DNA from: Ulva prolifera
Taxonomy: Eukaryota > Chlorophyta > Ulvophyceae > Ulvales > Ulvaceae
NCBI GenBank assembly: GCA_023078555.1
Contig: CM041199.1
Location: 8,127,315 to 8,191,314 of the forward strand
Reading direction: 5' to 3'
Length of the DNA stretch: 64,000 bases
The notes beneath the pieces are model-generated. The model saw only the letters and a list, made by a program, of their open reading frames with translations, made no database searches and was not told the DNA's origin. Below, one piece after another: positions 15,990 to 57,153 of the stretch (positions within the stretch are counted from its first letter, which is position 1; the number at the start of each line of letters is the position of its first letter). The position numbers were made by a program, and so were the translations under genes.

Positions 15990-18900
15990 ATGTCGGACAC
16001 TCAAGTCCTCCTGGACGAAGGGACTTCGCGTCCACGGAAGTCCAAACTACTCACCGTTTGTCCTTACATCTTAGGTAGGCTTGCTGTACCTTGCGGTCAT
16101 CTCGTGTCCGGAATTCGCAGGAGAAGTCTTCTACAGCATGTGACCATCGTGCGGGACAAGATTTGGACTGAGTATTGAACCGGTCCAAGCAAACAGTCAA
16201 TATCCAAGTTTGATTACTGATCACATGAACGGCTGCTCGGTGGTCTCTATCCGATTAGCTCACATGCGGTGTCTCTTCTTTTTGCAGCAGTGAGCTGCTG
16301 TCTGCATTGCAGGAAATGAGTTCTGCGAACGCCTGGCATTTTATGGGATCTCTACGAACCTGGTCATCTATCTAGAGTCTGTCATGAAGCTCAGCGCCGG
16401 CGCATCCAGTATACAGACCAGCCTCTTCTCGGGAACATGCTATGCGACCCCTCTCCTTGGGGCCTGGCTTGCTGATGGCTATTGGGGACGTTACAGGACG
16501 ATCATGGTCTTCTCAATGATTTATGCTGTGGTGCGTAGGATGTTCTGCCATGCTCCGTTTGTTACACCTTTTCACACTTCTGCAATGCTGGCAACTAGTT
16601 GCACTCTCGAATCACATCAAGCATGCGGTAGTTCGTGGCTCCTACCGAATCACGGTGGCAGCATCTACGGACATTATGTACATGGTGCTGTCACCATGTT
16701 TCGTAGTGAAGTGGCCATGCCCACGAAATTTCCCCTTCTTGGGGCTCCCAGTGTGTCAGCATGCCACCAGGCACAACCCGCACATACATCACCATTCATC
16801 TGCACTGCACACGAACCACACGTTTGTACCTGCCATGTGATAAGCACTGTATATATCTCTTAATTCGTAGCAATTCTTTCGTTGAGGCAACCTTAAGGGC
16901 ATGATTGTGAGGCCTATTTCAGAGTCACCTGCCGCAAACTTCGCGGACGTTGCAATGCTGAGGTGCCACTACAACTTACATGCACATGCTGCTTTATGCA
17001 CCATCAAATAAGTCCCCATCGTGGTCAGGTCCGCTTCTCTCGCCAAAATCCCAAATCCCGAGGCGGCAGACCTGTGTACACAACCAGACACACTCGCCTC
17101 GACCCGCCCCAACAAATCCCTCATCATGCACTCCCGCTGCTCACAGGGAAGCGTATGGCCTGACTGACACGACGAGCTCGAGCTTCAACGCTGCGCATAT
17201 CCGGGGGCCAAGGCTTTGTGGCAGTGCATGCTTGAACACATGCAGGGCATGGCGCTGCTTGCGGCAACGTCGCTTGTGCCGGCGCTGAGCCCGCAAGACG
17301 GCGCAACCCCGACCATCGGCCAGCTGACGCTGCTCTACTGCGCGCTCTATGTCGTCGCCCTCGGCACGGGCGGTATCAAGCCCAACGTCAGTGCCTTTGG
17401 CGCGGACCAGTTTGACGACAAAAGCCGCGTTGAGCGCCGCGAGAAGCAGTCGTTCTTCAACTGGTTCTACTTCTCCATCAACGTCGGTTCATTGATCGCG
17501 TGCACTGTCATCGTCTGGATCCAGGCGCGGCCCCGCCCCCCAAAACCGAGTGCCTGGCAGTTTGGTTTCGTGCTCTCCCATGCTGTAGCCGGTACACTCG
17601 GAACCTGGCTGGCCCCCGGCGCAACCGACCTTCAGGAAGCAGAACTTTAGGTGGTTGCGTGTTTTCCAGTCTAAGATCGGCCCTCTGATTCAGCACATGT
17701 CGGCTGGCCGTCCCATCGCGCATCCCGCTCCCCCATGTACATGCCCGACTCGTTGCGGAACCTCGCCCCGAAGCGGCATCTAGCCCACGAGTGCATGCTC
17801 ACATGGCCATGCCTGCGCCGCTGTCAACACCTCTGGAACGCGCATGTAGCTCAGAGCTGCTCCCACCTATCCCTTCGGCGTGTCTGGATCAATGGCGGCT
17901 TCAGTTATGTGTGTCAGTTTGTGTAGGGCTGGAGCTGGGGCATCGGGTTTGCCATCCCGGCGGTCGCAATGCTTCTCGCTGTCGTCATCTTTGTCGCCGG
18001 CCATGGCCGCTACAAGCACGAGCAACCGACGGGGTCGCCGCTTGAGCGCGTCGCCGACATCACCTGGCACGCTTGTGGCCACTGTGCGCGCCGGTGGCTG
18101 TGCTTCGGCGGGCGGCCGGAGGACGCCCCTATGCCCCGTGCCTCTCAGGTTTGAATCCATCCACCCCCCCCCCCCCCCCCCCCCCCCCCCCCACCCCCTG
18201 GTGCTCTCTGTGTATGACGCATCAGTCACGCAGTCTCCTCTGTATGCAAAGCATGGGCCCAAATGTAACTGGTGCGTGCGCTGGGGCGGCCTCTGGGGGC
18301 AGCAGCAGCGTCAGTGCGCGTGACTTCATCTCCGTGGCAAGGCTGGGAACTGCGGGACGCTAGCATCATACATTGTGTGTCCACAGAGGCAGGGCGTATG
18401 ATGAAGCTTCCGCGTGGAATCAGAAAATTATTTCCTGAGACGATTGCAGGACAACGCGTGGCTGCTGTAGGCATGGGGCTGTCGGCATGGGGTGTTCATT
18501 CGTGTTGGGTCGCCTTGCAGCATTTTCAGGGCTGCCATCCAGATATTAGACCTGAATATCTAGAGTTGTTCTATGTGATCGGGCCCGATGACCCAAACTG
18601 GTGTGCGTAGCACCTTGGCACGTGGCGCAATCCAGCGCCACAGCAGCGAATGCTGCTGCCATGCGTGCACACTGTTGACTTCGGCCGGGGCAGGCACGGG
18701 TGCAGAGAAACGCAAGCGGATCTCTCGTCACGGACGCTGCGCATTGTAAACAAACACCTTCACTCCAAGGTTCAGGGTGCAGATACAAACAATAATGAAT
18801 GATAGGATATTTCACAAGGTCGTTGTGGGGCGGGTGCAGGAGGAGGAGATCTTCACCGGCGCGTTGGCGAGCGCGCAGGCTACCGCGCCGGATGCGCTCG

Positions 18901-19457
18901 ACCTCGCGGGTGGGGCGCGCGGGTACACGCGCGACCAGGTCGACGAGGTGCGCATGGTGCTGCGCCTCGGGCCCATCCTCGTCCTCAGCGTCGCCTACTG
19001 GACGATCTACACGCAGATGGCCTCCGTCTTTGTGCTACAGGTGTGCCGCCCCCTCGGCCGCTGCCATGCTGCACAGCTGCGGTGGCTTCGGGCGAGGCCG
19101 GGGCTTACACGAGGGTGTGTGGGTTTGTGCGCTGCTCGACCCGGCCGGCGCATGCGTGCAGGGGCGGCACATGGATACGACGGTATCCTTCGGCGGCCGC
19201 GCGTCGTTCAGCATCCCGCCCGCGTCGATGGCGCTCTTCGACACGCTCTCCATCATCATCCTCATCCCGATTTACGACGGCATCGTGCACCCCATCATGA
19301 AGCGCCTGCGCTGCGACCTCACGATGCTGCAGCGCATCGGCTGGGGCTTCCTCGTGGCCACGGCGGCGATGGTCGTCGCCGGCGCCGTCGAGGCCCGCCG
19401 CCTCGCTGCACTCACCGCCGACCCCCCCTCCAACATCCCCATCTCCCACCAGGCACG

Positions 19458-19498
<41 letters not shown>

Positions 19499-21305
19499 TC
19501 TATTTCCTTTGCATCACTGTGCTGCTGCATCTGGCAGGGCGGCACTTGACCACCTGTGTTTTGGCGGCTGACAAGGCGGACGCCGCTGCCCTCGGCAGTC
19601 GTGATAGCCGATTGGGTAATACTTGATGAAGGGGTCGTGCGGTGCAGATCCTGCAGTACACGCTGGTCGGCACGTCAGAGGTGCTGGCGTCCATTGGCCA
19701 GATCGAGTTCTTCTACGACCAGGTGCGCTCTCCCCCGATTTTTCCGTGGCCCCCCTCAATGGGCCGTGCTGTGCCCCACCGGCAGTATATGAGCAACCCA
19801 TGAGCCCCTCTCTCCCACTACAATGGGCCGTGCTGTGCCCCACTGGCAGCGTATGAGCAACCCAGAAACTACCATGCCATGTGGCTGTTCTGTCAATTAT
19901 TTGTAATATGTATTTATTTTGACTGTTACTGTTATTTTTTATTCTTGTTTTCTGCATGAGTCGGGCTTCCAATAACAGGAAGCTCAAGCCAGAGCTGCTG
20001 TGGAGCAGCGCTGCTGCGTCATCCGCTTCAGCCGCACACGCTGATCCGCTACTCCAGAGCACACAGCATCTGCGATGGTGCTGGATCCATGCGTGCACGT
20101 CGTCCTCCACACTGCCGCCGACCCCCTGCCAGCATGCCTGACCGCGTACATGCACGCCCCCGCTGCGTGCCAGGAGCTGCATCACTGTTGCGCCTGTGGC
20201 CACACCGGGCATCTTCCCACACGGCCCTCTTCCCACCTCTGCTCGCATCAGCTTCGTCAAACTGCTGCCACAAGTTTATTGCATGCGCAATGTCTCACCT
20301 TCCGGCAGGTGGTCTCAATGATTCGGAGTTCTCCAGGTCGGAATAGGATATGGCCGGTGTGTTAGTTTTACTGTTGTTGTTGAACAAAACTTCCGCACGC
20401 AAGTTCACTTGACACATGCGCCGCCCGCGGCAGCGACCCCACGTCTTTGCCACTGCAGGCCCCCGACGTGATGCGCTCCTGCTGCGGCGCGCTGTCCCTC
20501 CTCACCACCGCGCTCGGCGGCTACCTCTCCGCCTTCCTCATGGCCGCCGTGACCTCGTCCACGCACTGGCTTGATGACCTCGACAACCCCGCGACCGCGC
20601 GCCTCGACCTCTACTTCTACCTCCTGGCTGGCTTCATGCTCGCCGCGACGCTCGTGTTTGTGGGCATCTCGACGCGCTACCAATACAAGACCGTGCGCCA
20701 CCGCGCGCCGCTGCCGCTCATTGGCGGCCAGCAGAGCCATGCGGTGATGCAGCAGCTGCCGCCCGGCGCACGTGCGATCTCTTCCTTCCGGCCTATCCAC
20801 GGCACCCGTGTGCTCTGCTTGCTGCGGCGACGCCGCACTGCGGTACCGCCGCAGCTGGTGTTCCGCCGCGTGAATTGTGCATACCTGTTCCTGTTCTGGT
20901 GACCCCGAATCTTCAGGACCGCCCCGTCGCCGTCTCTATGACGCCTCCGCAGCGGGTTTCCGCCTCGTTGATCTGACTGCGTCGTGTGATCCTGCGTCGT
21001 GTGATCCTGCGCCACCGCGATCTTCTGCTATGGAGCACACTGTGCTGTACGCCCACTGAGGAAGCCACGGCGTGGGCGTCCGCCGTGCCCCGCGCTAAAT
21101 GCCAGCCAACACAAGGCATTGATGACACAAGGGCTTCATGCGTGCAGAGGCCGGCGGCGGCCCGACGCAGGCGATCAACATCGGCGGGGTGCGCCCGGGG
21201 TACGGCTACCAGTTCTCCGGCACCCCAAGCAGCGACGTCGGGCCGTACGGCCGCTCCGTGACTTACATGCCGCAGACGCCGGTGATGCCGCCCAACTTCC
21301 GGTAG
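15990..21305 (+). CDS. POT/NPF (NRT1/PTR family) proton-coupled transporter
   Basis: Proton-coupled symporter of the major facilitator superfamily, for di/tripeptides or nitrate; substrate cannot be read from sequence. Nine exons: 15990-16074, 16313-16530, 17246-17524, 17927-18148, 18840-19040, 19162-19452, 19648-19722, 20459-20771, 21148-21305. They give one frame of 613 residues, normal for the family. Family motifs: NEFCERLAFYG (the ExxER-type proton-coupling motif of TM1), GTGGIKPNVSAFGADQF, FFNWFYFSINVGS, then GWSWGIGFAIP, YTQMASVFVLQ, and IGQIEFFYDQAPDVMRS near the end. The plasma membrane is the usual site. Introns 3 and 6 appear to start with GC (CAG|GCGCGG and CAG|GCACGC). Introns 4 and 6 hold long poly-C tracts. 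Exons 1-2 have moderate third-position GC; exons 3-9 are extremely GC-rich. The donor of exon 8 has an alternative nearby, so a few residues before the tail are uncertain. Confidence 0.92.
18164..18192 (+). repeat. Poly-C tract in transporter intron 4
   Basis: About 29 consecutive C on the coding strand, some 15 bases after the donor of exon 4. The template strand is therefore a long G run. Confidence 0.95.
18505..18596 (+). mobile_element. 92-bp MITE-like element, copy 1
   Basis: Bounded by TTGGGTCG and its complement (ATGACCCAA) and lying inside transporter intron 4. It matches 30053-30145 in the opposite orientation over its whole length: CTGCCA, then ATTAGACCTGAATAT, and GGGCCCGA near the far end. 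Equal length with matching inverted ends points to a short non-autonomous DNA transposon. No coding capacity. Confidence 0.75.
19459..19495 (+). repeat. Poly-C tract in transporter intron 6
   Basis: About 37 consecutive C on the coding strand, a few bases after an apparent GC donor. Length in the source DNA is likely to vary. Confidence 0.95.
19758..19864. repeat. Tandem duplication in transporter intron 7
   Basis: A 43-bp segment beginning AATGGGCCGTGCTGTGCCCC occurs twice, 64 bases apart, with about two differences. Confidence 0.9.
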
Positions 21306-23181: not shown

Positions 23182-26100
23182 ATGCTTACTTCTATGCACA
23201 CTCGCTTGGGAGGAAGACTTGCGCGTGGATTCGTTCGGGGTGCTGCACCCGCTCCTATCTCCAACGTATTGAAGCTCAACTCCACGTTCCAGGTGCGACA
23301 GCGTACAACATCGTTTTCGCTTAACAACAGGTAGCAGTCGTGTACGACGCTCCAGTGCTTCTTTATAACTGTATTGAATTCTGCATGCTATTTGCTAAAC
23401 CTTTCTGATCGTCTGCTCGTACAACCTCTAAATCTTGGACCGCTGACCGCTGACGCAGAACGTACGCTCGAAACGCGCGAATGCCGTTTATTTGTTGTGG
23501 GTCTTGGTTTGCTGCTATCCACATGTGGTAGTGGATATGGCTACGTGCATGGTCGGGGCGATCTATAAATTTGCTTCGTTTCAGACGTGGCCGTGCGTCT
23601 TCTGTCAATCACGCACAACTCAGACCGCGCTTTACATATCAAATCGTCTATGGTAATATCTTTTTATGGTTGCAGCGGCTTTCCATCGCGAAAAGCGCCG
23701 CTGCCCTTGCAACGGAGCCCGAAACAGCAGAGCCAGAGGCGATGTTCAAGCTCAAGCCCGCAGACCCTGCTGCCACCTTGGCGACCTTCCGGAAGATGAT
23801 GAAGGAGAATGGCGTCGATGCATACATCGTTCCGTCAGAGGATCCACACATGAGTGAGTATCCTCCGGAGTGTTGCGCTCGCCGGGTGTACATCTCGAAC
23901 TTCACCGGCTCAGCTGGGACCGCCGTGATTACAGCTGATAAAGCTCTTCTGTGGACAGATGGAAGGTACGGCCATCTAGCTTCACGCTGCTGTCCACGCA
24001 TTGCTGTTCAGACACAGGACCACCCACTGCTCCCTTGCGGACAGCCATGTCTTGCAGATGCAAGCAGCATCGAGCACGCTACCCAGCATGTAATGAAACG
24101 TATGTATGCTTGGTCTGCTTACTGGATACGCATAGTTGCGTCGGTAGTCCCACGTACTGCTCGTGTGTCGGGCATGGAGCCCTCTGTTCTACTGACAGCA
24201 TCGTGACAGTCAGCCTGCCACACCAGGTACTTCCTTCAAGCTGAGCAGGAGCTCACGTCAGAGTGGGAGCTGATGCGTGCCAACACCGGCAACACCCCAG
24301 AAATAGCGGACTGGCTGGCTGACAACCTGTCAGCGGGTGCGGCTGTGGGGATCGATGCGCTGGTCCACACGATCGGTTCAGCCCGAGAGCTCGAGCGCAA
24401 GCTGTCTGCAAAGGACGTCAACCTCAAATGCATCGAAGGCAACCTCGTTGACGCGTGCGCCCCAGTCTTTTCAGTGCTCCCCTGCCATGGCGTCCTGCTC
24501 CCTGACCTGAGGGTGTGCAGCAGTACCTTCTCAGCCGCGCACAATATTGGCCATGTAAAGGCAAGCTAGCATGTTCCCGAAGCCAGTATACCTCCATGGC
24601 GCCGCCCCTCAAACCGCTATGGACACAGGACATCTTACAATTCGCTCAGCTCAGCCGCGACTCTACATCTGGCAATTCCAGACCCATCACAGGCTACAAA
24701 CTGTTTGTGTTGACGCACCTCGACATGTGTGCTATAGCCAGTGATCAAACTGGCTCAGTCGACACAGCCATGCTGCCATAGCACCTTGAGAGTCATTCTC
24801 TCGCCTGGGTCCATGCCTGGTTGAACCAGTGCTTACGTGCATTTTCATGGTTCTGCTCACCAGGCCCACCGCCGCAGTGCGTGACCGGCGCCACCCACGC
24901 CCACCCGCCCCTCTGCCCGTACAGGGTGTGGACTGACCGCCCCGGCTGGCCGTGCAAGCCCGTCCGCGTGCACACGCTCGACCACGCCGGCGTGTCCGTC
25001 GTCGAGAAGCTCGCGGCGCTCGCGAAGGAGCTCGCGGTAGCCGGCGCCGACGCTCTCGTCGTGAACGACCTCGCCGAGATCGCGTGGCTGACCAACCTCC
25101 GCGGCGCCGACGTCGACTGCAACCCGGTGTTTGTCGCATACGCGATTGTCCGGCCGGACGGCGCGACGCTGTTTGTCCATGACGGCGCTGTGGACAGCGA
25201 GGTCGAAGGCTACCTCAAGGTGAATGGGGTCGAGGTCGCCGCGTATGACAAGGTGGCGCCCCTCCCCTGCTACAGCGCCCACAGCAGTGGCGCACTGCGC
25301 GCTATCAGCGCACCTGTGGCCATGTCTCCGCTCTTGCACTCGCGAGTGGCTGTGGTGCCTGCCTGGCCGTGTGCCAGTCGCTGGGGACAACGGTGCTGGC
25401 GTGCGCGTAGCTGTGCTGATGTCTACAGCATGTATGCGTGTGTACGGAGGGCGCGGCCGCGTCGTTGCTGGGGTGCCGCTGCGGTGTCTGAGGCCGGGTA
25501 TCGCGGGCTGTGCCGCGCCTATCCGCCGCGAGCACCTTCACACATGCAGGGCACTACAGCAAACTTCCCCCGCCCACTCCGCATGCCCACGCGTGCTTGC
25601 TCAGGTGTTCGCTCCAGTGAGCGCGGCTGTGCCCGGCTTGTCGCCGTGGAGCTGACTTGGGACAGGGTGTATGATGGTTTGGACCAACTCATGGCGAGCA
25701 ATTCGACCGCACAGTGCACATCGCATGCATTATGAGTCACAGCGAACAGCGGGTGTTCTCCGCACCTGCAGTTTGAGGACGCGGTGTACGAGCTCGCGAA
25801 GGACAGCAAGAAGCTCTGGCTGAGCCCCAGCGGCGTGTCGTACGGAACGTACCAGAAGGTTCTGGAGGGCGCGGAGGAGGCGCGCGACAGCAGCCGCGGC
25901 AAGCGCCGCAGGACGGAGCACGGGCACTCGCCGGGACAGGCGGGCGTGCACGAGGCCCAGAGCCCGATCCAGCTAGCGAAGGCCGTGAAGGTGTGCCTCC
26001 CCGAATGCGTCAGTGTGTACTACGGTCGGACAGCTTGCCGCTGTGCTGCGAGGGCCACCTGCGGACGCACCGCATCGGGGTTTGCATCGCGTGGCTTGCC

Positions 26101-28373: not shown

Positions 28374-29638
28374 ATGGCGGATACCTCTTCCGCGCTTGCG
28401 GAGGTGTGCTTCCACCGTGTCGCGCGATCACCGCAAGTTCAGACGGCAGTAAAGCGCCAGGGCATCGGATGTGCATGTTTGGAATTTTATTCGCGAATTG
28501 TGCAGCTGTTTGAGACGGAACTATCATGTGTGAAGTACCATCAAGGCAACAAGGCGTGGGCATACATCAGCCTGCTACCGCTCTTCGCTGCTGTCTTTCA
28601 GCTCGGTCGCTTTTGGACGTCCAGGTGCGTACGCAAGAGGCATTCCCCGTCTTGTGGATGCACAGTACTTGCTCTGAACAGCACACATCAGCGAAGCACA
28701 TGGAGTTGGCGCCTGATGCAGACAAATCGCACTGAGCACGTTTAGTTTCAGCAGGTCAATCGAAGATGGATTCGTATTCATTGGATTTCTTGTCACAGAA
28801 GCCATCAACAAAGTGTTGAAGAGGCACTTCAAGCAGGACCGCCCGCCTACATGTGAGCAGCTCGGCGTCTGCTCATCCTACGGCTACCCATCGTCGCACT
28901 CTCAGTGCATCTGGTACTTCATCACGTGTGGCTCCTTGGTGTGTGTCCAGGGCAGCTGCTGCGCCTGAGCCTCTGCCTGTGCACTCCAGCCACCCAACCA
29001 CAAGCGAACAGCAAATACAAAGCCTTCCGAAAAGTTCATTAGTTCACATCCACATGCCGACATGCTGCCTGACTGCCTCGAGCCTGGGCAATGCAATTTG
29101 CACTGCAATCCTCAGCCTCCACTGTAGCACAGCTGCTCGCTGCACCCATGCAAATAGCTCTTTGTGTTCTTCTACGTTCCGGCTGGGCCTGCATGTAGAA
29201 GCCTGCTGCTGCTGCTCGTCCAGTCCGCCCGTTTCTGTACAGGTGCTGTGGCGGAGATGGGCCCTAGCACAGCAGAATGGCCACGGCAACGAGTCCAGCA
29301 CCAGAAGGCCCGGTCGCCCCAGCAGCCCCAGAGCAGACCTACCGCCCAACACCCTCGCCCTCCTGGCTGCTGTTTTCACCGGAATCACGGTGCCAGCATC
29401 ACGAGTCGTGCTGGGGTACCACACAGTGGAGCAGGTCGTGGTGGGAAGTGGCTGTGGGGTGTTGTGTGGCCTTGTCGGGGCATGGGTGACCCTCGGGCCA
29501 GTTGGTGTGACAGCAGCTCGCGTGTGCTCCAGCCTGCGGCTCCCGCAGCTGCTGGGAGTGACGAGTTATGTCCACGGTGTCAGTGACAGGGCACCCTCGA
29601 GTGAAAGCGGCAAGGCCACGATGCACAAGCGAGACTGA
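28374..29638 (+). CDS. Dolichyl-diphosphatase (PAP2 family)
   Basis: ER membrane enzyme that recycles dolichyl diphosphate, released when oligosaccharide is transferred in N-glycosylation. Four exons: 28374-28403, 28506-28624, 28755-28938, 29243-29638, giving 242 residues, the usual length. Exon 2 begins with the family head ELSCVKYHQGNKAWAYISLL. The three phosphatase motifs are present: KRHFKQDRPP (motif 1), YGYPSSHSQ (motif 2) and SRVVLGYHTVEQVVVG (motif 3, with catalytic His). Exon 3 has a tandem NAG acceptor (ttcagcag), so a form with one extra Ser is possible. The first 10 residues rest on a GAG|gtgtgc donor and are less certain. The gene starts only 174 bases after the aminopeptidase stop. 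The last coding bases form the first unit of a tandem repeat that runs into the 3' flank. Confidence 0.9.
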
Positions 29639-31300: not shown

Positions 31301-33465
31301 ATGAGTGATTGCTACTGTGGACTGAAGACCCGAGCCAATCGCTGGAAATGGACTACGTTCGGGGTGCTGCTTGTCGTGGGATTCGTCTTCCTGTTCGCAG
31401 CATTTCAACAGATAGCGATCTGCTCGCGGGCACATGAAATTGGTGCGATACGATTGAAAATGTTTCGCACTCCATTATCTCCGCGACAAACCATGGAACT
31501 CTCTATGTGTGGCTCCTGGTTGCGAAGCTTCTGCGAAAGGCTTGCCCGAGCGGGATTCGCCTGTGTTGGTCGGACCGCAGGCGCTACCACATGAAGCCTG
31601 TGCACATGTGAGCGCCAAATGTGCCTGACATGAGCATGCCCTTTTGCGCTGCAGCTTCATGTGCGCTTGTGCGTGGCTGTCAGCACGCCCAGTCGCGACC
31701 GGGGTCCAGCGTATGGCTCCATGAACCCATCCCATGGTTACAGTCGCCCTTGGTGAGGAAATATTACAACAGTTAAACAGTGTATTCCAATACGCACATC
31801 AATCTCGCTGCAGTTGCCGACCATGCCATCACAGTGCACAAGGCTCCCGACACCACCAGCATACGCCCGCTTCTTTCAGCTCATCGACTAATAGCCATCC
31901 CAAGCGAACTGTCCACTCTTGGAATAGTTTGCAGCACACATCACTGGGAACAGGCCTCCCTCGTTATTTGTCTGAGACAGCTGGTTCTGTTCATGCTCCC
32001 ATACCTCCTGCCAGTGCGGGCAAGCTGCACCACAGCAGTGTGTATGCAGAGGACTGCGAGCTGTCAGCTGAGTCAGACGACGCCAGATGCGAAGCTCTGG
32101 AGCAGGCGGAGAACGACTGCATCGGGGAGCGCTACGTGCTCCTGACCGGCCTGTACCTCTTCTGGGTGATGTCGTGGATCGGGGCCTCTGTCCCACTCTA
32201 CATCATGTGCTGCTGCACAGAGCGGCCCCAAGAGGTGTGTTCACACCACCGCCTGCTGCTCAACCATGCTGCTTGACCATGACTGTTGCATGAAGACAGG
32301 GAAGGGCAGTCACCCCTGCTCCACATCACATACATCACATAAGTGTGTACCTCGTGTCTGTCGGCCGCGCATCCACTGCAGTAGAGCACCATTTGATGCG
32401 ATCATTGTTCGTTGAATCATCATCATACTGTGGTCGATGTCTCTCGAAGTTGTGTTCTTGCACCTGAAACTGCCCGACTGCGACAGGCACAGGTGACCTG
32501 CAATTTTTTTTCTCGAACTGGGGCACATTCCGCTTCAACTATCAGCTCGCTGTATCTACATTCTTCTCCGGCAACGTGGTGTCTGCATGGCTCACTCAGT
32601 CAAAAGGTGACAAATCAGCAGTCCGGGCGCGGCTCTGCTTGTCAATCCAATCATGTGGCTGCCGCCCATGGCGGCACCGTCACTGACACCATTCCATCCG
32701 TCTGTTGGTGTCATAGCTATTCCCATTGACCATTGAGTTGTATAGCCACCCATTGCAGCACCCCGAGCCCAGGCGCACTGTTCCGCTGCGAGCACGCACG
32801 TCCACTGCATGCTCAATGACCTCATCCTCCGACTGCGTAGCATCCGTTTTGAAAAGCTCAACGTACGTGAGACATCACTGGTCAAGGTCGCTTGCAGCAC
32901 GCTCACGTTCGCACCCGACTTGCATCCACATGCATCCCTCCAATGCGAGCACACGACACAGTTGCACCCGGCCCAAGCGAGCCTAAATGTTGCCATGCTT
33001 GCCCCAGCTTGCTCTCAGTGCGACTCAGACAGAACCACCCTTACAATCACACACACGCACCCATTACCACGTAGAGCAATGCCGGTATATGTATATCGCG
33101 ATAAATCGCTTCGTCAGGCCTCTCTCGAAGCGCACAAGCCCTCCACACACCCGCACCGAATGCTGCGCTCTGCGTCCGCCAGCTGCGACGGTCTGCATCG
33201 CACAGAGACACCCCCGTAGCCACACTGAATGCGAGCCGTGGCACTGCAGGAGCAGCCGCTGCCAGAGGGTGTCCAGATGGGCGTCCCGCACACCTTCCAC
33301 ACCATTGCCACGGCGCCCCCCTCCGGCTACCCTGCCTTTCCCCAGCACAGCCACGGCCGGCCAGTGCAGGGCTTCCTCACGACGCCGACGGCGCCAGCCG
33401 CCACGCCTCCGGCCGGCGCCGACATGCCGCCCGACATCCCCATGTACACCGCAACGATCAAGTAG
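31301..33465 (+). CDS. Two-span membrane protein with CCC motif, paralogue A
   Basis: Three exons: 31301-31442, 32050-32234, 33250-33465, giving 180 residues. Intron phases are 1 and 0, identical to paralogue B downstream, which supports both models. Order: a Cys-rich head (MSDCYCGLKTRANRWKW), a first span (about residues 20-37, FGVLLVVGFVFLFAAF), an acidic Glu/Ser/Cys loop, a second span ending WIGASVPLYIMCCCTE, and a Pro-rich tail (EGVQMGVP, later PPAGADMPPDIPMY). The three adjacent Cys after span 2 look like an S-acylation site. If both termini face the cytosol, the loop is lumenal or extracellular. No family recognised. Exons 2 and 3 are GC-richer than exon 1, and the tail is longer than that of B. 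Confidence 0.72.
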
Positions 33466-36253
33466 AGCGTGCTGCGCGTGCTGTGGCGGGGGGTTCCGCC
33501 GTGGCCCTGCGCTGCCGAAGAACCCGTTGAGTGTTGCGCAGTGCAGTGGGCACATGCTGCGGGCGCATGCATTTACGGCAGCGGTGTCCCCTGCGTGCAA
33601 TGTGGCAATTCTGTGTGGTAGGGCGGAGTGGCAGCGAGGTGACATGCGAAGTGGCTACGAGGGGATACGGCCGCACGCATGAGCACGTGCAGAGAAAGGA
33701 GTGCGATTAATATGCTGGCGTGATCCCACAGCAGGAGGGGATGTGTGCTGGGTGTTGTAGGGACGTGGGCACGGGTGGGGGGCCTGTCGGGTGTGACGTT
33801 ACATGGCAGGTGTAGGGAAAACGGCACGATGTTGTGGGCGGGTGCAGAGCCAGGGGATGCCATGCCGCGCTGGAGCAAGAGAGGAAGCGTTGCAGCACTG
33901 GTGTTGTTGGTGCTGGCACCTAAGTACATACATGCTCCTGATGCCCGAGTGTTAGTGTTGCGACGACAAATTCGGAGAGCCAGGTAGCACTCTGGCGAAA
34001 CGCACCAGGTCAGCAATGCCACCAGACGTCGTCACACGTCAGTCCCTTCCATGGTGCTCGTGCCGGACAGCTACTCTCGAGCGTGGGTGTGGGCGTCGCC
34101 AAGCGTGGTTCATATGGCACGATGGCTGGTGGCCATGCATGAGCTGTGGCTGTGAGGAGCCCACTCGAACTGGCTTTGTATCACCCCGAGTCTGGCCCCA
34201 TCGCAGAGCTGAGACATGGCTGCAAAGGAAACCGCACGCTCGCCACAGTTTTCATTCTGCCGCAGAGCCTTGCCTGGTGGCAGTGCACCTAGATCTAGGT
34301 GCATCTAGATCACATGGCTGACTGTGCTTTCTGTATTGTGAGGCGAAAAGACTTGACCAGATTTGCAGGTTTGATCCCAGTAGGGCATAATCGGTTTTAC
34401 CCGTATGCACGGTCTCAGACCAAGAGTCCCGTGCACTGTCAAATCACCATTCATGTCTCTCACTGTGTAGGGCTGACTAGGTCACATCAGGCTGTCTCTG
34501 TCTGCTACCTGTCTGTAAAGATGAGCGTTGCCGTGGCGAAGTCGGACCAGCAAAGGTCAGGCGCTGCCGCCGGCAGGGCATTATGTTGTGCAGATCGTGG
34601 CACGCGCTGGCTTTTGAGGCAGTGTAATCAAGCGTGCTCTTTGAGTGATGCTGACATCACACCAGCAGCGTAGCAGATGGGTCATGCAGAAGCGGCGTTT
34701 GTGAGTGTGATGCTGGGTTTGTGCACGACGGCACACAGTAGATCCAGGTTTATTTGCCTTGACACAGCAGCGGGAACGGACGTCTCTGCAGATGCATGGC
34801 CATCCAGTCAGTCGGGCTGCCCGGGCCTCGGTTCAGTGCAGGACAATAGATATCCTGTCACTCACAGACAGGCACGCCAACTTGCGAGTCGGAAGAGGCC
34901 ACCACATCACAAAATTACTTCCAGCAGGACTGTATGTATTCGATTGGGCTCGCCATTGGGCTGCCACATTGGCACGAGCAGTTTGTTATTTGTACACGAT
35001 TTGTACACGATCATTGCCAGTGTCCATGTATCCATCTCACTGTGGCTGGCGAAACGACTGCACCACATCCTCACAGGGCCACACAGCCCCACAGTTCACT
35101 GTGCAGCACACTTGCCTCGTGTGCCAAGCATGGTGTGGTTGTCTCGGGTTGGCGGGTGAGCATCTGGGGAAGGACCGCAGCTGGCTCTGATGCAACCTTC
35201 ATTGCATGTGAGTTGATGTCACGTCCCCACAAGTAATCACCATCAAGCTGAGTTAAAAGCAGGTGTAGGTGTACTGCAGCCGTCGACGATGATCAGATAG
35301 CAGGCTTGACACTGCATGTAACATGCCAGCTTCTGTAGGACTGTGGTCACACCTACCAGTTGATGTTGCTGCCATTGTGAGTGTGTGGCAGCACAACTGA
35401 CTTAGCACACCTTTCGTGGATGCACTAGTACCACCGGCATGAGACACTTGCACAGGCTATGCCACCATGCTGATACATGCACAGCTCACGCAATACTGTG
35501 CAGGGCCAATCGAGATCGCCTAAATCGTTCTCAGAATGCTGGTGAGAACGGAGTAGCTGTAATGCGCCGATCCGTGGGTTATAAGGGATGCAGTGGGTGA
35601 GGTAGCACCGCAGGCATGGCCCACCACCAAAGCACAAACTCATATCTCTGCGCAGACCACTGCAGGCCTGCCCCAAACCAGGACCGTCTGTCTATGTGAG
35701 ACATCCTTGCATCGCAAAGCATGATGGCACACCTACAACGTATGGCACCATTGATGGACATGCATGGGAACAAAAAATGATGAGAAGGGGTAGTCATAGC
35801 TGTGCCCATTTCACATTCGCAGCTGACGCGTCTCACGGCATTGATCGAGGATAACAGGAGTGCAGCTTGTAACGAGGCCGACCCTCGTTTCGCATATGCC
35901 TTTCGGCGGCCTCATACCTGAATTGGGCTGGTTCCGATTGACCGTTGTGCTAGTTGCGCGTAGAGCTGAGAGCTGCTCCGGAAGACCATCTGGAGAAACA
36001 TAGCTCGCAATTCCTCACAGGTGGGTGCTGTCCCCAATTGTGGACAGATTCTGCTTGTATGCTTTGTTCACACTTACATGCGCCTGATCCAAGACAGCGC
36101 CAGGTCGGAGGATGTGAGGCGACCCCGTTACCGTTTTGAGATACATCTATTCGATGGTTTCTTGGCGCGGCAGGATGAAGCATGCCCCTTCACTGAGTCA
36201 GTACGGTATGCTGCAGTTCGCTTTCGGGAAGGCTGCCTGCTCAAGGGCGCGCC
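33466..36253. other. Intergenic spacer between the two paralogues
   Basis: About 2.8 kb with no supported gene. It contains an 18-bp perfect palindrome (GCACCTAGATCTAGGTGC) near 34287-34304. A short hydrophobic frame at 33745-33987 (VAALVLLVLAP) has no further support. Confidence 0.35.
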
Positions 36254-37534
36254 ATGGCGAAGTCTTGCAACTGCTACTGCGGTGTGGCCACCAAAGCGAA
36301 TCGTTCCAAGTGGACAGCTTTCGGAGTATTGCTGACATTGGGGGCGGTTTTTCTGGTGGCCTTATGTGCGCGGTCTACCAGATGCATCAGCGGTGACACG
36401 TTAGGTGCGACGCTGGCTTAAAGCTCGACATGGCACCATCATGGACGGGCCGAGAAGCCGAACGGCCGTTCGAACATATGTGAGATGCTTGCTCTAGTGT
36501 CTGTGTCGCAGTGGGATCCATGTGTCAACCAAAACATGGCGTCACCCGCACTGCGTATGCAGAATGCCAGCAACAGCAAAGGCACGGACCGGTGTCGACA
36601 TATTGCCAAGGAGTGATGACACAGTATGATGATTGTGTGCTGGACGACATGTCCGCCATTGCTAGCTTGGAAATCTTCTGGCTGCTCTGCTGGATCGGGG
36701 CCAGCATTCCTCTGTACATGATGTGCTGCTGCACAGAGCCCCCACACATGGTGCGCCCCTTCACAACGTCCATCATCTCAAGGGGCCAGGCGTGTGTGCT
36801 GATTGGCATACTTGACATACAACAGTACAGCCATGAATAGATAATGGCAGGTTCTATTGTCTTCTCACATGCTGCATTACACTCACGTCCGATCTATGAT
36901 GTCGGTTTAGTCCCATGCACCGGATGTGCAAGTGTTGGGCTCGAATGCACCTGCTGTGCCACTGTACAGCGGCAGCCTGGTTGACTGTATGAGTGCCAGC
37001 TAGGCCGCAATTTCAATTCTAATCCATTTCTGACACCCCTGGGGACACGTAATCGCACTCATCGATCTTCTGACGGGAAGAGCAACACTGATTTCCAATC
37101 GTGATGTGTGCATCAAGAGTTTGATCCTCAAACCGCTCTCCAGCATTCCTGCCAGGCGAACTGGACCTGGCAAACGGGAGCCTCCAGGCACCTCGCTGAC
37201 CCACACAGTTCAAGAGCGCGCTACACTTGTGCAAAAGCATTTGTGGGTCCACATTATTTAACATGAACGCGTTCGTGCTTGCTTACATTGCCAAAACGAT
37301 CCAGTCAAGCAGCTGTGTGATCGATAGCGACTAGACTTCGTTATCGATGCCACTTGCCTGTTCGTGCTAATATGTATTTACACCCTTGACAGGTCCATTG
37401 TGCAGGTATCTGTGGAGGGCATTCAGATGGGCATGCCCCCTGATTGGAGCGATCCAAATGCCCAGGCTCTGCATGATTCGCCAGATGAAGAGGCTCTGCT
37501 GGGCGATCCCTACGCCTCCTTGACCCGCAAGTAA
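36254..37534 (+). CDS. Two-span membrane protein with CCC motif, paralogue B
   Basis: Three exons: 36254-36404, 36563-36750, 37406-37534, giving 155 residues with the same intron phases as paralogue A. Head MAKSCNCYCGVATKANRSKW, first span FGVLLTLGAVFLVALCA, a Gln/Asp-rich loop, second span LLCWIGASIPLYMMCCCTE, and a short acidic tail (GIQMGMPPDWSDPN). Shared with A: CYCG, K/TxANRxKW, FGVLL, WIGASxPLYxMCCCTE and GxQMGxP. The loops and tails have diverged widely, so the duplication is old. Unlike A, codon use is balanced in all exons. Function unknown; not lost, since both copies keep an open frame and matching splice sites. Confidence 0.72.
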
Positions 37535-53281: not shown

Positions 53282-56200
53282 ATGAGGGCTGACAATATTG
53301 AACGCTGGCGCCAATTGATTCGGGATGAACTTCGAACAGACCTGCAAGACAATTCGCGTCCAGGTTTTATGTACCATGGTAGTTCATCCGGCCGTCGCTA
53401 TGTGCTAAAACGGCGTCCGGACAGGAGGCGTCTCGCACTCTCGCCAGAGCACTGCCTCTCGGGTCGTTCGGTGACTTCCCTGTCCCTGATAGTCACTTGT
53501 GAAGCATTCGGGTCGTGCGTGTTTCACCAGTTGTCACCGGGCGTCAGCTCAAACGCATGCAGTGCAAACTGCAGGAACGCATTTGACCCATATCGGGCGT
53601 CGTACCATACCTACCAGGGCCGAAGCGCTGCCTGTCATCTGCACAGCCTAAGCGTGAACATGCAGGCGATCCCGAGTCCCCCGGTATGTCGAAGTCTCCG
53701 CAGCACGCGGCCGCCGCGAGCGAAGACAACTACGTCATGGTGTCCCCGGCACACAGCACGGGTGATCCCACCAGTCACGAGTCCGCCTCGGAGCCGGGGG
53801 ACGCCAGCGTGGCATCGGACGCTTGCGGTTCAGCCTGCGGCAGCGCCGCATCTTCCTCCGCCTCAGAATCAGACGACGACACGGACATGTGGTTCACGTA
53901 CTCCGACGCGGGCTCTGATGTTAGCTCTGATGCCTGCTCTGATGTCGCAGTGGAGGCGGGAGGCGCAGCGGCGTACGAGAGACGTGGCGTGGGCGACACG
54001 GAGGCCTCGGCGGCGCACCTCGTGCACGTGAACCTCGTCGTGTGGCACTGTGGCGGGAGACGCAGCGGCGACGACCAGGCATCGGTGTGCTGTGTATGCT
54101 TTGCGCGCTGAGCTCCTGGGGGATACAGGCGCTCGTGTGTTGCGGCGAACTGGCCTCGCATGCTGCGGCATGCATGCACTCCTTGAACAGTGGGTGTTGG
54201 GGTCGATAGGGGCCGGGAGCACGTGGTCTAGACCGTGTCGTTTGAGGGCCCGAGGTCTGGACCACTTGGATCCGCAGCTGGCAACGCCGGTGCCGTGTAT
54301 TCTGTGGGAGTGCATGATTTCGAGCTGCTCACCAGAAGCTCCGTCGCGCTGCCGCAATGCATGCTCTACATGCATGTCCTCGCAGACTCCAACACCTCCC
54401 CATCACTTCTCAACGTGTCGCCTCCCGCCTGCAGGCCCCCGTCTGGCTGCATATCAGCCACTGCCCGCCCGCATCCGTCCACTCCGCCCCCACCGCAGCT
54501 CGCACTGCGACCTGCAATATCCCCTGTACCAGACGCTCCTCCGCGGCCGCCACCCTGGGCCCTTTGCCCGTTGTGCCGGTGCCGCTCGGCTGCAGCAAGA
54601 GCGGGCAAGGGGCCGCGGAGCGCGCGGTCCCCCTGGCCACTGCTGACGGCGGTGTAGCCGTGTGGCTACTGGCTGCCCGGGAGCCACACGAGCGCGCCGT
54701 CTCTGCTCCTGAAGCAGTGCGGATCCCCGAGGGATCCGTGCTGGTGCTGGGCGACGCGCGGCGATGCGGCGGAGAGCTAGGGTTTGAAGATGTGCACTTC
54801 ACCGGTGCGGCTCACGAGACTGCCTTCCCTACACCTGCCTGTCACCTGCCCTACACCTGCCTGTCTCCCCTCCATAGCCACTTGTACGGGAACTCGCTGT
54901 ACAGGAAAAGCCAAACAACGTATTCCGCCGCCTCTCTTGTACAGCATGCATGCATGCCCCCTCCACTGCTGTGTCTCCGCAATGCATCAGAGCCCGTGCC
55001 GCTGCCAGCGCCACGCGGCCCTGCGGTGTGAAAGTGGCTTAGGCGTAGCTGTGTCTACAGGTGGCATCGTCGCCGTTCTCGGCTGCCAGGCCACCTTCTT
55101 GCGCTGCAGCTTCACCGGCTGCAGTGCCGTTGTAACTGCTGCGGGCACGGCCAAGTTTGCGGGGTGTGAGTTTGCGGAGACAGCCGCCCCGGCAGTCGTG
55201 GCCTGCGGCCCCTCAGCCACCGTCCGCCTCTGCAGTGGCCCCCACGGCCAGCGCACCCGCTTCCGCGGCTGCGCGCAGCCGCTCGTTGTGGCCGCAGGCG
55301 GCGAGGGCGACGTCACCCACTGCGACTTCTCTCAAGGGCCTGCCTCCGGAGACTGCATCGCCGCGACCGGCAAGGCGACGCGGATCCAGGTTGAGGATAA
55401 TTCGTTCCACAGCATGGAGACTGCGGCGCGTCCCGCAGCGTGCGCGACTGCAGTGCGCGCAGCGCCAGCGTGGGGGGTGAGGGTGTCCGAGGGCGCACGT
55501 GCGATCGTGCGCAGCTGCCGCTTTGCCGGGCTCGCGGGCGGCGGGGTCAAGGCCGCGGACGCCGCGGACGCGATCGTGAGCGGCTGTGAAACCTTCAGGT
55601 CGCGCCGCGCAGGGTTCTTGGTGGCTGCCGGCGCACAGATGCACCTGAACAGCTGCCGCAGCAAGCGGGACAGCCGCGCAGCTGTGCACGCCTCCGGCGC
55701 AGACACGCGCCTTCACGCCACAAATCTCGCCGTGAAGGCTGCGGCTGTGGACGGGGTGGTCGTCCAGAGCGGCGCGCATGCATGGCTGCAGGACTGCACT
55801 GTGACAGATGCCGTTGACACTGGGGTTCAGGTGGCGGGGATGGCGGCCTTTTTGTGGCTAGAGGGGTGCACAATCTCGGGCAGTGGCCGCGATGGGGTCT
55901 GCGCGGCGCAGGGCGCGACCATGCATGCACGCGCGTGCTGTGTCGATCTCGCGGCGAAGTGCGGCATGCATGTTGACGGGGAGACATCGCAGTGTACTGC
56001 CGCGGACTGCACCATCCGCGGGAATCGCATGGCCGGCATGCATGCGATTCAGGGCGGCAGCGTCACAATGAGAGACTGCAAGTCGGAGCTCAACGGGGTC
56101 GCACTGCTGGTCAGAGACGGCGGCGATCTGACTGCGCATGCATGCGAATCGCTGAACGAGGTCGGCGGGTGGCTGTCCGTCTCCGGGGAGCACAGCACAG

Positions 56201-57153
56201 CATACGGGCGGGACTGCGTGGCGCGGCGCGCGGTGTCGTCCGCCGTGCTTGTGGCTGATGGGGCTGCTGTGCAGCTCCATGCATGCAGCCTCATGCAGGC
56301 TGTGAGCCACGCCGTGACCGTCCGCGACCCGGAGTCGGCGATCGATATGTCGCTCTGCACCATTGGGGAGAGCGGGGGCACGGGGGTGCTTGTGGCTAGA
56401 GGGGGCACGGCCGTCATGCAGGAGACCACGCTGGCGAGCAGCGGTGGAAACGGCGTCGAGGCGATTGACGAGGGCGCCGTGGGCATGTACCAGTGTGTGC
56501 TCCAGGGTTGCGCAGATGCGGCGCTCAGGGTTGAACGGCGAGGCGTGGCGATTGCGCAGGAGACTATCTTTGCCAACGCAGGAGCCCACGGTCTGTACGC
56601 GGGCACCGCAGCCCTTGCCGTCTTGCAAGGGTGCACCCTAGAAGACACCGGCGCCGCCGCAGTGCTCGCGAAGGACGGCGCGCTCGTAGCCACAGTCTCC
56701 TGCAAAGCCTCCGGCTGCGCGGTCGACTTCTATCTTGCGGGCGTCCTGGCCGCGGCGGACGGCGGCGCCGCAGAAATCGGTCAGGGTGTGATTGCCAGCG
56801 GGGGGCCTGGTCCGTGGATGCACAACGGGGACGAAGCCGCCCTGCCGGTGCGGCCGGGGGGCATGGCCACCCTGCTCATGTCAGAGTGCGAGCATCTGCC
56901 GCGGGCTGGGCCGTATGCGGAGTCGTGGGCGGGTCAAATGGAGACTCATGCGCTGGTCGTTCGCAACCGCTCAGTGAAGGGCTGCGGCTTGGCGGTGGGG
57001 GTGCCTCTGAGTGCGCTGATGTATGAGCAGGCGGCGGCGCTTCCGGAGCGTTTCCAGGCGCGATTTCAGCAGCAGAGGGAGGCTCGCGAGCGCTTTAGGA
57101 AGGTGGTGGTGATGGCGGCCGTAGTGCTCGCTGACAAGGCGACACCGCCATAA
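53282..57153 (+). CDS. Right-handed beta-helix repeat protein
   Basis: Four exons: 53282-53363, 53666-54084, 54435-54804, 55061-57153, giving about 987 residues in one frame (phases 1, 0, 1). The N-terminus (MRADNIERWRQLIRDEL) is helical and charged. Exon 2 encodes an acidic Ser/Ala/Asp region (SASESDDDTDMWFTYSDAG). From exon 3 on, some twenty short rungs of the beta-helix type follow, each with a Gly turn and a buried Cys or Ala: CTISGSGRDGV, CTIRGNRMAGMHA, TLASSGGNGVEA and IFANAGAHGLYA are typical. This matches the parallel beta-helix fold of carbohydrate-active enzymes and F-box/SHCBP1-like proteins. No signal peptide, F-box or clear catalytic residues are visible, so an intracellular scaffold is as likely as an enzyme. 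The long last exon is unusual for this window. The end of exon 2 may instead be CAG|GC at 54078. Confidence 0.8.

Follow-up and report, generated by a model that had tools for sequence, protein, structure and literature searches.

The gene pair and its relatedness

In a stretch of 64,000 nucleotides from the Ulva prolifera genome (contig CM041199.1, hereafter C4, positions 8127315-8191314; "the window"), two neighbouring genes, designated A and B, are predicted to encode small membrane proteins with two hydrophobic spans and cysteine clusters at the head and after span 2. Gene A starts with an ATG at 31301, spans 31301-33465 and would yield a product of 203 amino acids; gene B spans 36254-37534, its stop codon ending at 37534, and would yield 172. 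The initial annotation, made from the DNA letters, had described two three-exon genes with common intron phases at these positions, and both were confirmed as gene predictions, since the coordinates agree, all introns are GT-AG and the phases are 1 and then 0 in both genes. The exon 2 acceptor of gene A (31981) was chosen from several in-phase candidates, 31954 being another. The motifs reported as common to both proteins (CYCG in the head, FGVLL in span 1 and WIGASxPLYxMCCCTE at the end of span 2) are present letter for letter.

Proteins A and B are identical at 56 of 145 positions (39%; BLASTP E=2e-32), and their local alignment score of 265 compares with a maximum of 98 among 1000 shuffles of B, made inside 10-residue blocks so that the hydrophobicity profile was roughly preserved; given both results, their likeness is not due to chance. 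Over 166 aligned codons, the ratio of nonsynonymous to synonymous substitution rates (dN/dS) was 0.28, with a dS of 2.3 that is near saturation. As predicted sequences, A and B are a real, old and constrained pair. By part, dN was 0.43 in the head and span 1, 0.96 in the loop and 0.30 from span 2 to CCC, whereas dN/dS was 0.41 in the loop and 0.40 in span 2, and could not be estimated for the head because synonymous sites were saturated. Stronger constraint on the membrane part is therefore visible in dN and not clearly in dN/dS, so that, of the earlier proposal of an old duplication with selection on the membrane part, the age and the constraint hold and the second half is supported by dN only.

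The loops and tails had been called unrelated, which is correct for their overall alignment and incomplete in detail. The loops align no better than shuffled sequences (score reached by 629 of 2000 shuffles), yet their cysteines are in register. Likewise, the tails are related only through the motif EG[VI]QMG[VM]P, for which 10 of 2000 shuffles scored as high.

Family members across the genome

Exon-by-exon searches of the genome (88.9 Mb in 44 contigs), with eight of the 13 members as queries (B, F, D, J, H, K, E and M), placed the tandem pair, real as such, within a larger family with at least 13 loci (A to M), 12 of them on C4 and one (K) on contig C5. This number is a lower bound because scoring covered the best candidates only. 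The remaining family, the loop cysteine register, the tail motif and the loop-less paralogues are all additions to what had been noted initially. Gene models were built for 11 members (A-K); M consists of two exons placed by eye, and L is known from exon 1 only, a motif search having found no exon 2 for it. The common plan starts with a head containing Y-x4-T-x6-W, followed by span 1, by a loop that most members have, by span 2, which ends near MCC, and by a fast-changing tail on a separate exon; the start MGC occurs in four of the 13 members (C, D, J and K). Junction phases are 1 and 0 in nine of the 11 modelled members, including a phase 1 first junction in J as its exon 1 has 145 bases, while in F and I the first intron is missing, as is the entire loop. 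Judging by homology alone, C, D and H would have a GC-AG first intron, with GC at the donor site that is GT in other members. Gene modelling found neither the second-intron acceptor nor exon 3 of J and K, and a search through the tail motif gave no convincing exon 3 for J, K or M. At the level of predicted sequences, the family and its cysteine register are solid.

A gene tree of 12 cores was not relied on, none of its nine inner branches reaching the mark for strong support. Weak matches beyond the 13 loci occur at C7:2901008, C3:1428890, C4:4177606 and C8:4242793 (E 0.13-0.49), and a match on C9 (1276004, E=0.18) was dropped after its three frames were read and family features were found absent. 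A DNA pattern for CCCTE matched 96 times, compared with 25 times for its reversed form, and was discarded as not diagnostic.

Two duplicated segments were also observed at family loci. Members F (L023, C4 6.204 Mb) and I (L026, 6.495 Mb) lie in a recent segmental duplication that includes their flanks, with pieces 89-95% identical. In addition, the 3' part of H is tandemly repeated with 99.4% identity over 2966 bases that begin near the start of intron 2 and run past exon 3, which reflects either a recent event or an effect of the assembly.

Cysteine register and a possible disulphide-clamped hairpin

Counted from the head Tyr, Thr at +5 and Trp at +12 occur in all 13 members, and a Cys at +36 (Tyr-x4-Thr-x6-Trp-x23-Cys) in all 11 loop-bearing members and in neither F nor I. 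In a subgroup formed by A-E, J and K, a second ruler runs back from the CC of MCC, with a Cys exactly 30 residues ahead in all seven proteins and a further Cys exactly 40 ahead in six (42 in C), the distance from the head Tyr to MCC ranging from 96 to 119. When six frames of 165,311 bases were scanned (the window together with L021-L032, which contain the members), the head pattern matched exactly the 11 loop-bearing members and nothing else, and C-x28-MCC matched the seven subgroup members and the loop-less F, where the Cys lies inside the first hydrophobic stretch. The first and second cysteine pairs are spaced 9/9 in D, E and J, 11/11 in C, 10/9 in B and 7/9 in K, so that two C-x9-C pairs occur in three of the seven subgroup members, A having the second pair only. 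Alignment of two exon-1 pieces alone opens a gap that takes the first loop cysteine (Cys1) out of register, whereas the 10-row alignment and the gap-free count do not.

The stretch from the head to Cys1, which includes span 1, is constant in length, as is that from Cys4 to MCC, which includes span 2; this suggests two rigid helices with no gaps. Where both arms have the same spacing, as also in C (11/11), this agrees with an antiparallel hairpin held by disulphides Cys1-Cys4 and Cys2-Cys3. Nested pairs of this kind are reported for TRIAP1 (8-47 and 18-37) and CHCHD1 (45-76 and 55-66) (PMC12114033). Besides, from a two-row alignment of A and B, AlphaFold modelled the exon-2 piece of A (mean predicted local distance difference test score, pLDDT, 62; predicted template modelling score, pTM, 0.35), as one helix over residues 33-78 that spans Cys3 (36), Cys4 (46), span 2 and CCC (76-78). 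Among isolated loops compared with Pfam, CX9C matched those of E (E=0.0014) and J (0.021) and CHCH that of B (0.022), no match being found for the loops of D, C and K (three of six matched overall); among whole proteins, CHCH matched D (E=0.0054) and CX9C matched E (0.014). As a prediction, a disulphide-clamped hairpin is likely for the loop of the subgroup.

Searches against known families

No member from A to K (J and K without exon 3) reached a curated cut-off in Pfam, the best whole-protein E-value being that of D to CHCH cited above. The scores for CHCH (PF06747) were 17.3 bits for D and 15.3 bits for the isolated B loop against a cut-off of 27.2, and the best score for CX9C (PF16860) was 19.0 bits for the isolated E loop against 26.4. 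In NCBIfam, with which A to J were compared, bit scores for A, B, C, D, F, G, H and J gave no match at the cut-off, the best being TIGR04086 to G (E 0.0024, 18 versus 30 bits); E and I were judged by E-values only. A profile of ten family members, searched against PDB chain sequences, gave alpha-sarcoglycan (E=1.1) as its sole match. Two scans of viral contigs, each with one short peptide pattern, gave 12 and 6 pattern matches, and one such scan of prokaryote genomes gave eight, none of which was confirmed. No description of such a family appeared among the literature matches listed. Within Pfam, NCBIfam and PDB sequences there is thus no significant match, which agrees with the first impression that the proteins belong to no known family, and any function is inferred only.

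Topology, cysteine modification and tails

A hydropathy scan predicted two spans in eight of the 11 members scanned (A, B, C, E, G, H, J and K). In the heads of these eight, basic residues number 1-4 and acidic ones 0-1; in their loops, acidic residues outnumber basic ones in every case (basic/acidic counts of 4/12 in A, 2/13 in C, 4/11 in H and 4/5 in K). A basic head with an acidic loop fits an orientation with both termini in and the loop out, which would put both CCC and the cysteines of the head next to the membrane on its cytosolic side. Glycosylation sequons occur in the loop of H (NGT) and once in the head of B. Accessible cysteines on the cytosolic side can be palmitoylated without a sequence motif (PMC5668376), and S-acylation of the head and CCC cysteines is plausible from their position alone.

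Tails of A-E contain YxxPhi motifs and that of B also an acidic dileucine, none being present in F-I; such short matches are no proof of function. The pattern [VIA][PQE][VML]G[VMAT][PA][PAH] occurs in seven of nine tails (not in C or H) against a shuffled mean of 0.035, a contrast that is overstated because the pattern was written after viewing the tails and several of them are closely related. The tails of C, D and E align mutually (1, 0 and 0 of 2000 shuffles reaching the score), whereas alignment of the A or B tails with those of D or E was no better than shuffled.

Feature coordinates and other genes in the window

Table 1. Positions of the predicted features of genes A and B (numbered from the first letter of the window) and of the other family loci.
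Feature	Position	Strand	Remarks
Gene A exon 1	31301..31442	+	Head MSDCYCG, span 1, first loop Cys; phase 1 end (G|GTGCGA)
Gene A exon 2	31981..32234	+	Loop, span 2, CCCTERPQE; phase 0 end (GAG|GTGTGT)
Gene A exon 3	33250..33465	+	Tail including EGVQMGVP; stop TAG
Gene A head CYCG	31310..31321	+	
Gene A Cys1	31421..31423	+	Head Tyr +36 residues
Gene A C-x9-C (Cys3, Cys4)	32088..32120	+	40 and 30 residues upstream of CC in MCC
Gene A WIGASVPLYIMCCCTE	32175..32222	+	Span 2 end
Gene A tail motif EGVQMGVP	33265..33288	+	
Gene B exon 1	36254..36404	+	Head MAKSCNCYCG, span 1, first loop Cys; phase 1 end
Gene B exon 2	36512..36750	+	Loop, span 2, CCCTEPPHM; phase 0 end
Gene B exon 3	37406..37534	+	Tail including EGIQMGMP, YASL, DEEALL; stop TAA
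Gene B head CYCG	36272..36283	+	
Gene B Cys1	36383..36385	+	Head Tyr +36 residues
Gene B C-x9-C (Cys3, Cys4)	36604..36636	+	40 and 30 residues upstream of CC in MCC
Gene B WIGASIPLYMMCCCTE	36691..36738	+	Span 2 end
Gene B tail motif EGIQMGMP	37415..37438	+	
Locus J	C4 0.09 Mb		
Locus L	C4 5.20 Mb		
Loci F, G, H, M	C4 6.20-6.30 Mb		
Locus I	C4 6.50 Mb		
Loci A, B	C4 8.16 Mb		
Loci C, D, E	C4 8.24-8.25 Mb		
Gene C putative GC donor, intron 1	L021 3351		
Gene D putative GC donor, intron 1	L022 2939		
Gene H putative GC donor, intron 1	L025 4416		
H 3' repeat, copy	L025 4751-7709		C4 about 6.278-6.285 Mb (both copies)
H 3' repeat, copy	L032 3036-6001		

Other open frames of the window, all on the forward strand, resemble known families. 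The frame at 54781-57150 (790 residues) has four right-handed beta-helix matches (Pfam Beta_helix, E=1.5e-37), and two frames at 23532-25732 match creatinase/prolidase N-terminal domains (E=5.3e-12 and 2e-34) and are probably exons of an aminopeptidase P-like gene. Just under the Pfam cut-off, the frame at 18750-19568 resembles a POT-family transporter (E=1.5e-5) and that at 28820-29635 a PAP2 phosphatase (E=1.4e-5).

Proposed organization and alternative explanations

The reading that we favour is a family of two-span proteins with both termini in the cytosol, as suggested by the basic head and acidic loop, and with the loop outside the cytosol. In A-E, J and K this loop would fold into a hairpin of two antiparallel helices that stands on the spans, held by Cys1-Cys4 and Cys2-Cys3 disulphides as in twin-CX9C proteins, although gene A must deviate from the Cys2-Cys3 pairing as it has no Cys2. 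S-acylation would affect the cysteines of the head and of CCC, both close to the cytosolic face of the membrane. Such a protein could serve as a small adaptor or scaffold of the endomembrane system or plasma membrane, in which the clamped hairpin determines assembly or a partner on the outer face, the lipid domain is set by acylation, and the tail, with its GxPVGxP-like, proline-rich or YxxPhi motifs, recruits cytosolic partners that differ between paralogues. The adaptor role is a guess and the weakest step of the scheme. Taken as a whole (two spans, clamped outer hairpin in the subgroup, acylated cysteines at the cytosolic edge and an adaptor role), we judge it to fall a little short of an even chance. 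A bolder and more doubtful proposal is that the architecture is so far undescribed, with a CHCH-type clamped helical hairpin set directly on a transmembrane hairpin so that the four arms form one long pin; two exact rulers would fix the register, and diversification by gene duplication along one chromosome would act on the cytosolic tail and on the outer loop, which some paralogues lack.

Several observations weigh against this organization. The hydropathy scan found one stretch only in D, F and I. Gene A has no cysteine at the position expected for Cys2 (loop spacings of 31, 10 and 9), B and J each have one additional loop Cys, and H and M have other spacings, with C-x2-C at +36/+39 and a Cys at -27 (L also has Cys at +36 and +39 from the head Tyr). 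As the loop is short and contains two Cys in G, is missing from F and I and follows other patterns in H and M, the hairpin is dispensable for some members. None of the CHCH or CX9C matches, all below cut-off, covers both proposed pairs, that of D corresponding to residues 27-54, half of them within span 1, and that of E covering the Cys1-Cys2 arm only. Confidence in the exon-2 model of A was moderate at Cys3 and Cys4 (block means of 54 and 61) compared with 85-90 in span 2, and the exon-1 piece of B, modelled as a single sequence (pLDDT 62, pTM 0.28), has a helix at 23-40 that stops before Cys1 (44), which lies in a short strand. With the arms modelled as separate pieces, the second arm of the hairpin has some support from the predicted structures and the first has none. 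Moreover, dN/dS between F and I is 1.06 overall and 2.19 in exon 1, so these two members are not under clear constraint, and their membrane part may be relaxed or changing fast.

The same loop could instead place the proteins in mitochondria, with the CX9C-like loop in the intermembrane space, oxidised by the Mia40 relay, and the head and tail facing the cytosol (outer membrane) or the matrix. The twin CX9C spacing of D, E and J and the weak CHCH/CX9C profile scores agree with this explanation, as does the 9-9-9 spacing of J, which is near the 9-10-9 that follows from the CHCHD1 pairs stated in PMC12114033. The MGC start of C, D, J and K would also suit it, N-myristoylated CHCH proteins of mitochondria being reported (PMC6362269, PMC6235283). 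However, the 9/9 spacing is confined to three of seven subgroup members, the scores all stay under the curated cut-offs with one arm covered, nine of 13 members lack the MGC start, and the NGT sequon in the H loop fits the secretory pathway better, so that we regard a mitochondrial location as improbable. We give a similarly small chance to an auxiliary role beside a channel or transporter, as a two-span subunit whose clamped loop would cap the partner and whose tails would tune gating or traffic, since the predicted topological plan, which resembles that of BK beta subunits (PMC6298698), is not accompanied by any sequence relation, the PDB-chain profile search having returned only alpha-sarcoglycan.

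Metal binding had also been raised in the initial annotation, and the head cysteines and CCC might come together on the cytosolic side to coordinate a metal ion. Three cysteines do not vary in the 10-row alignment, namely the central one of the head and the first two that follow span 2, and both groups lie on the same side if the proposed topology is right; but that alignment holds no invariant His, Asp or Glu column, the central head Cys is replaced in K (Ile) and L (Tyr), CCC becomes CCR in E and CCA in M, and the Pfam match lists contain no metal-binding family, which makes metal binding quite improbable. Finally, it is very hard to credit that the genes are degenerate or mispredicted, their frames relics and their conservation a result of recent copying, because, in spite of the F/I dN/dS near 1, the single exon of L and the tandem copy of the H 3' part, A/B and C/D/E are old (dS of at least 1.5 or saturated) and have kept frame, junction phases and cysteine register.

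Annotation easily overlooks small membrane hairpin proteins because they are short, split into exons and fast-changing outside a few positions, and the two spacing rules provide a precise signature for recognizing the family in other eukaryotes. Besides, the coexistence of loop-bearing and loop-less paralogues offers a natural test of what a clamped ectodomain contributes to a two-span protein.

Comparison with known systems

Tetraspanins and claudins, of which the predicted proteins are reminiscent, are small membrane proteins with four spans, disulphide-bonded loops and palmitoylated cysteines near the membrane. The family differs from them in span number and has no Pfam match to them, and tetraspanin identity was rejected, as each of the 11 proteins has at most two hydrophobic stretches. 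Plant CYSTM proteins have one C-terminal membrane segment; the cysteine run at a membrane segment and a PVGVPPP-like proline-rich stretch recall them, but the family differs in that single segment and has no Pfam match to CYSTM.

BK beta subunits (KCNMB) have two spans, intracellular termini and a large outer loop clamped by cysteines, eight in beta2 and four in beta1 (PMC6298698). As a plan, the family would be alike, with two predicted spans, both termini inside and a putative Cys-clamped outer loop, and hydropathy and charge fit such a plan in eight of the 11 members scanned; membership by descent was rejected, the family profile having no match to these subunits among PDB chains. The cysteine plan is different, and the family has predicted cytosolic Cys clusters and proline-rich tails, which to our knowledge are absent from BK beta subunits.

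The closest likeness in cysteine spacing is with CHCH and twin CX9C proteins (PF06747, PF16860), given the C-x9-C pairs on both arms of D, E and J (9-9-9 in J) and the Cys1-Cys4 and Cys2-Cys3 pairing that is possible in this family. In contrast to those proteins, the loop sits between two membrane spans, the spacing is variable (no Cys2 in A; 10/9 in B; 11/11 in C; 7/9 in K) and the profile matches are partial, and strict membership of A and B was ruled out by scores below cut-off and by spacing. Overall, these proteins might work in the manner of either a twin-CX9C hairpin or a BK beta subunit, and, if a twin-CX9C-like hairpin does stand on two spans outside mitochondria, a known fold would be extended to a new setting.

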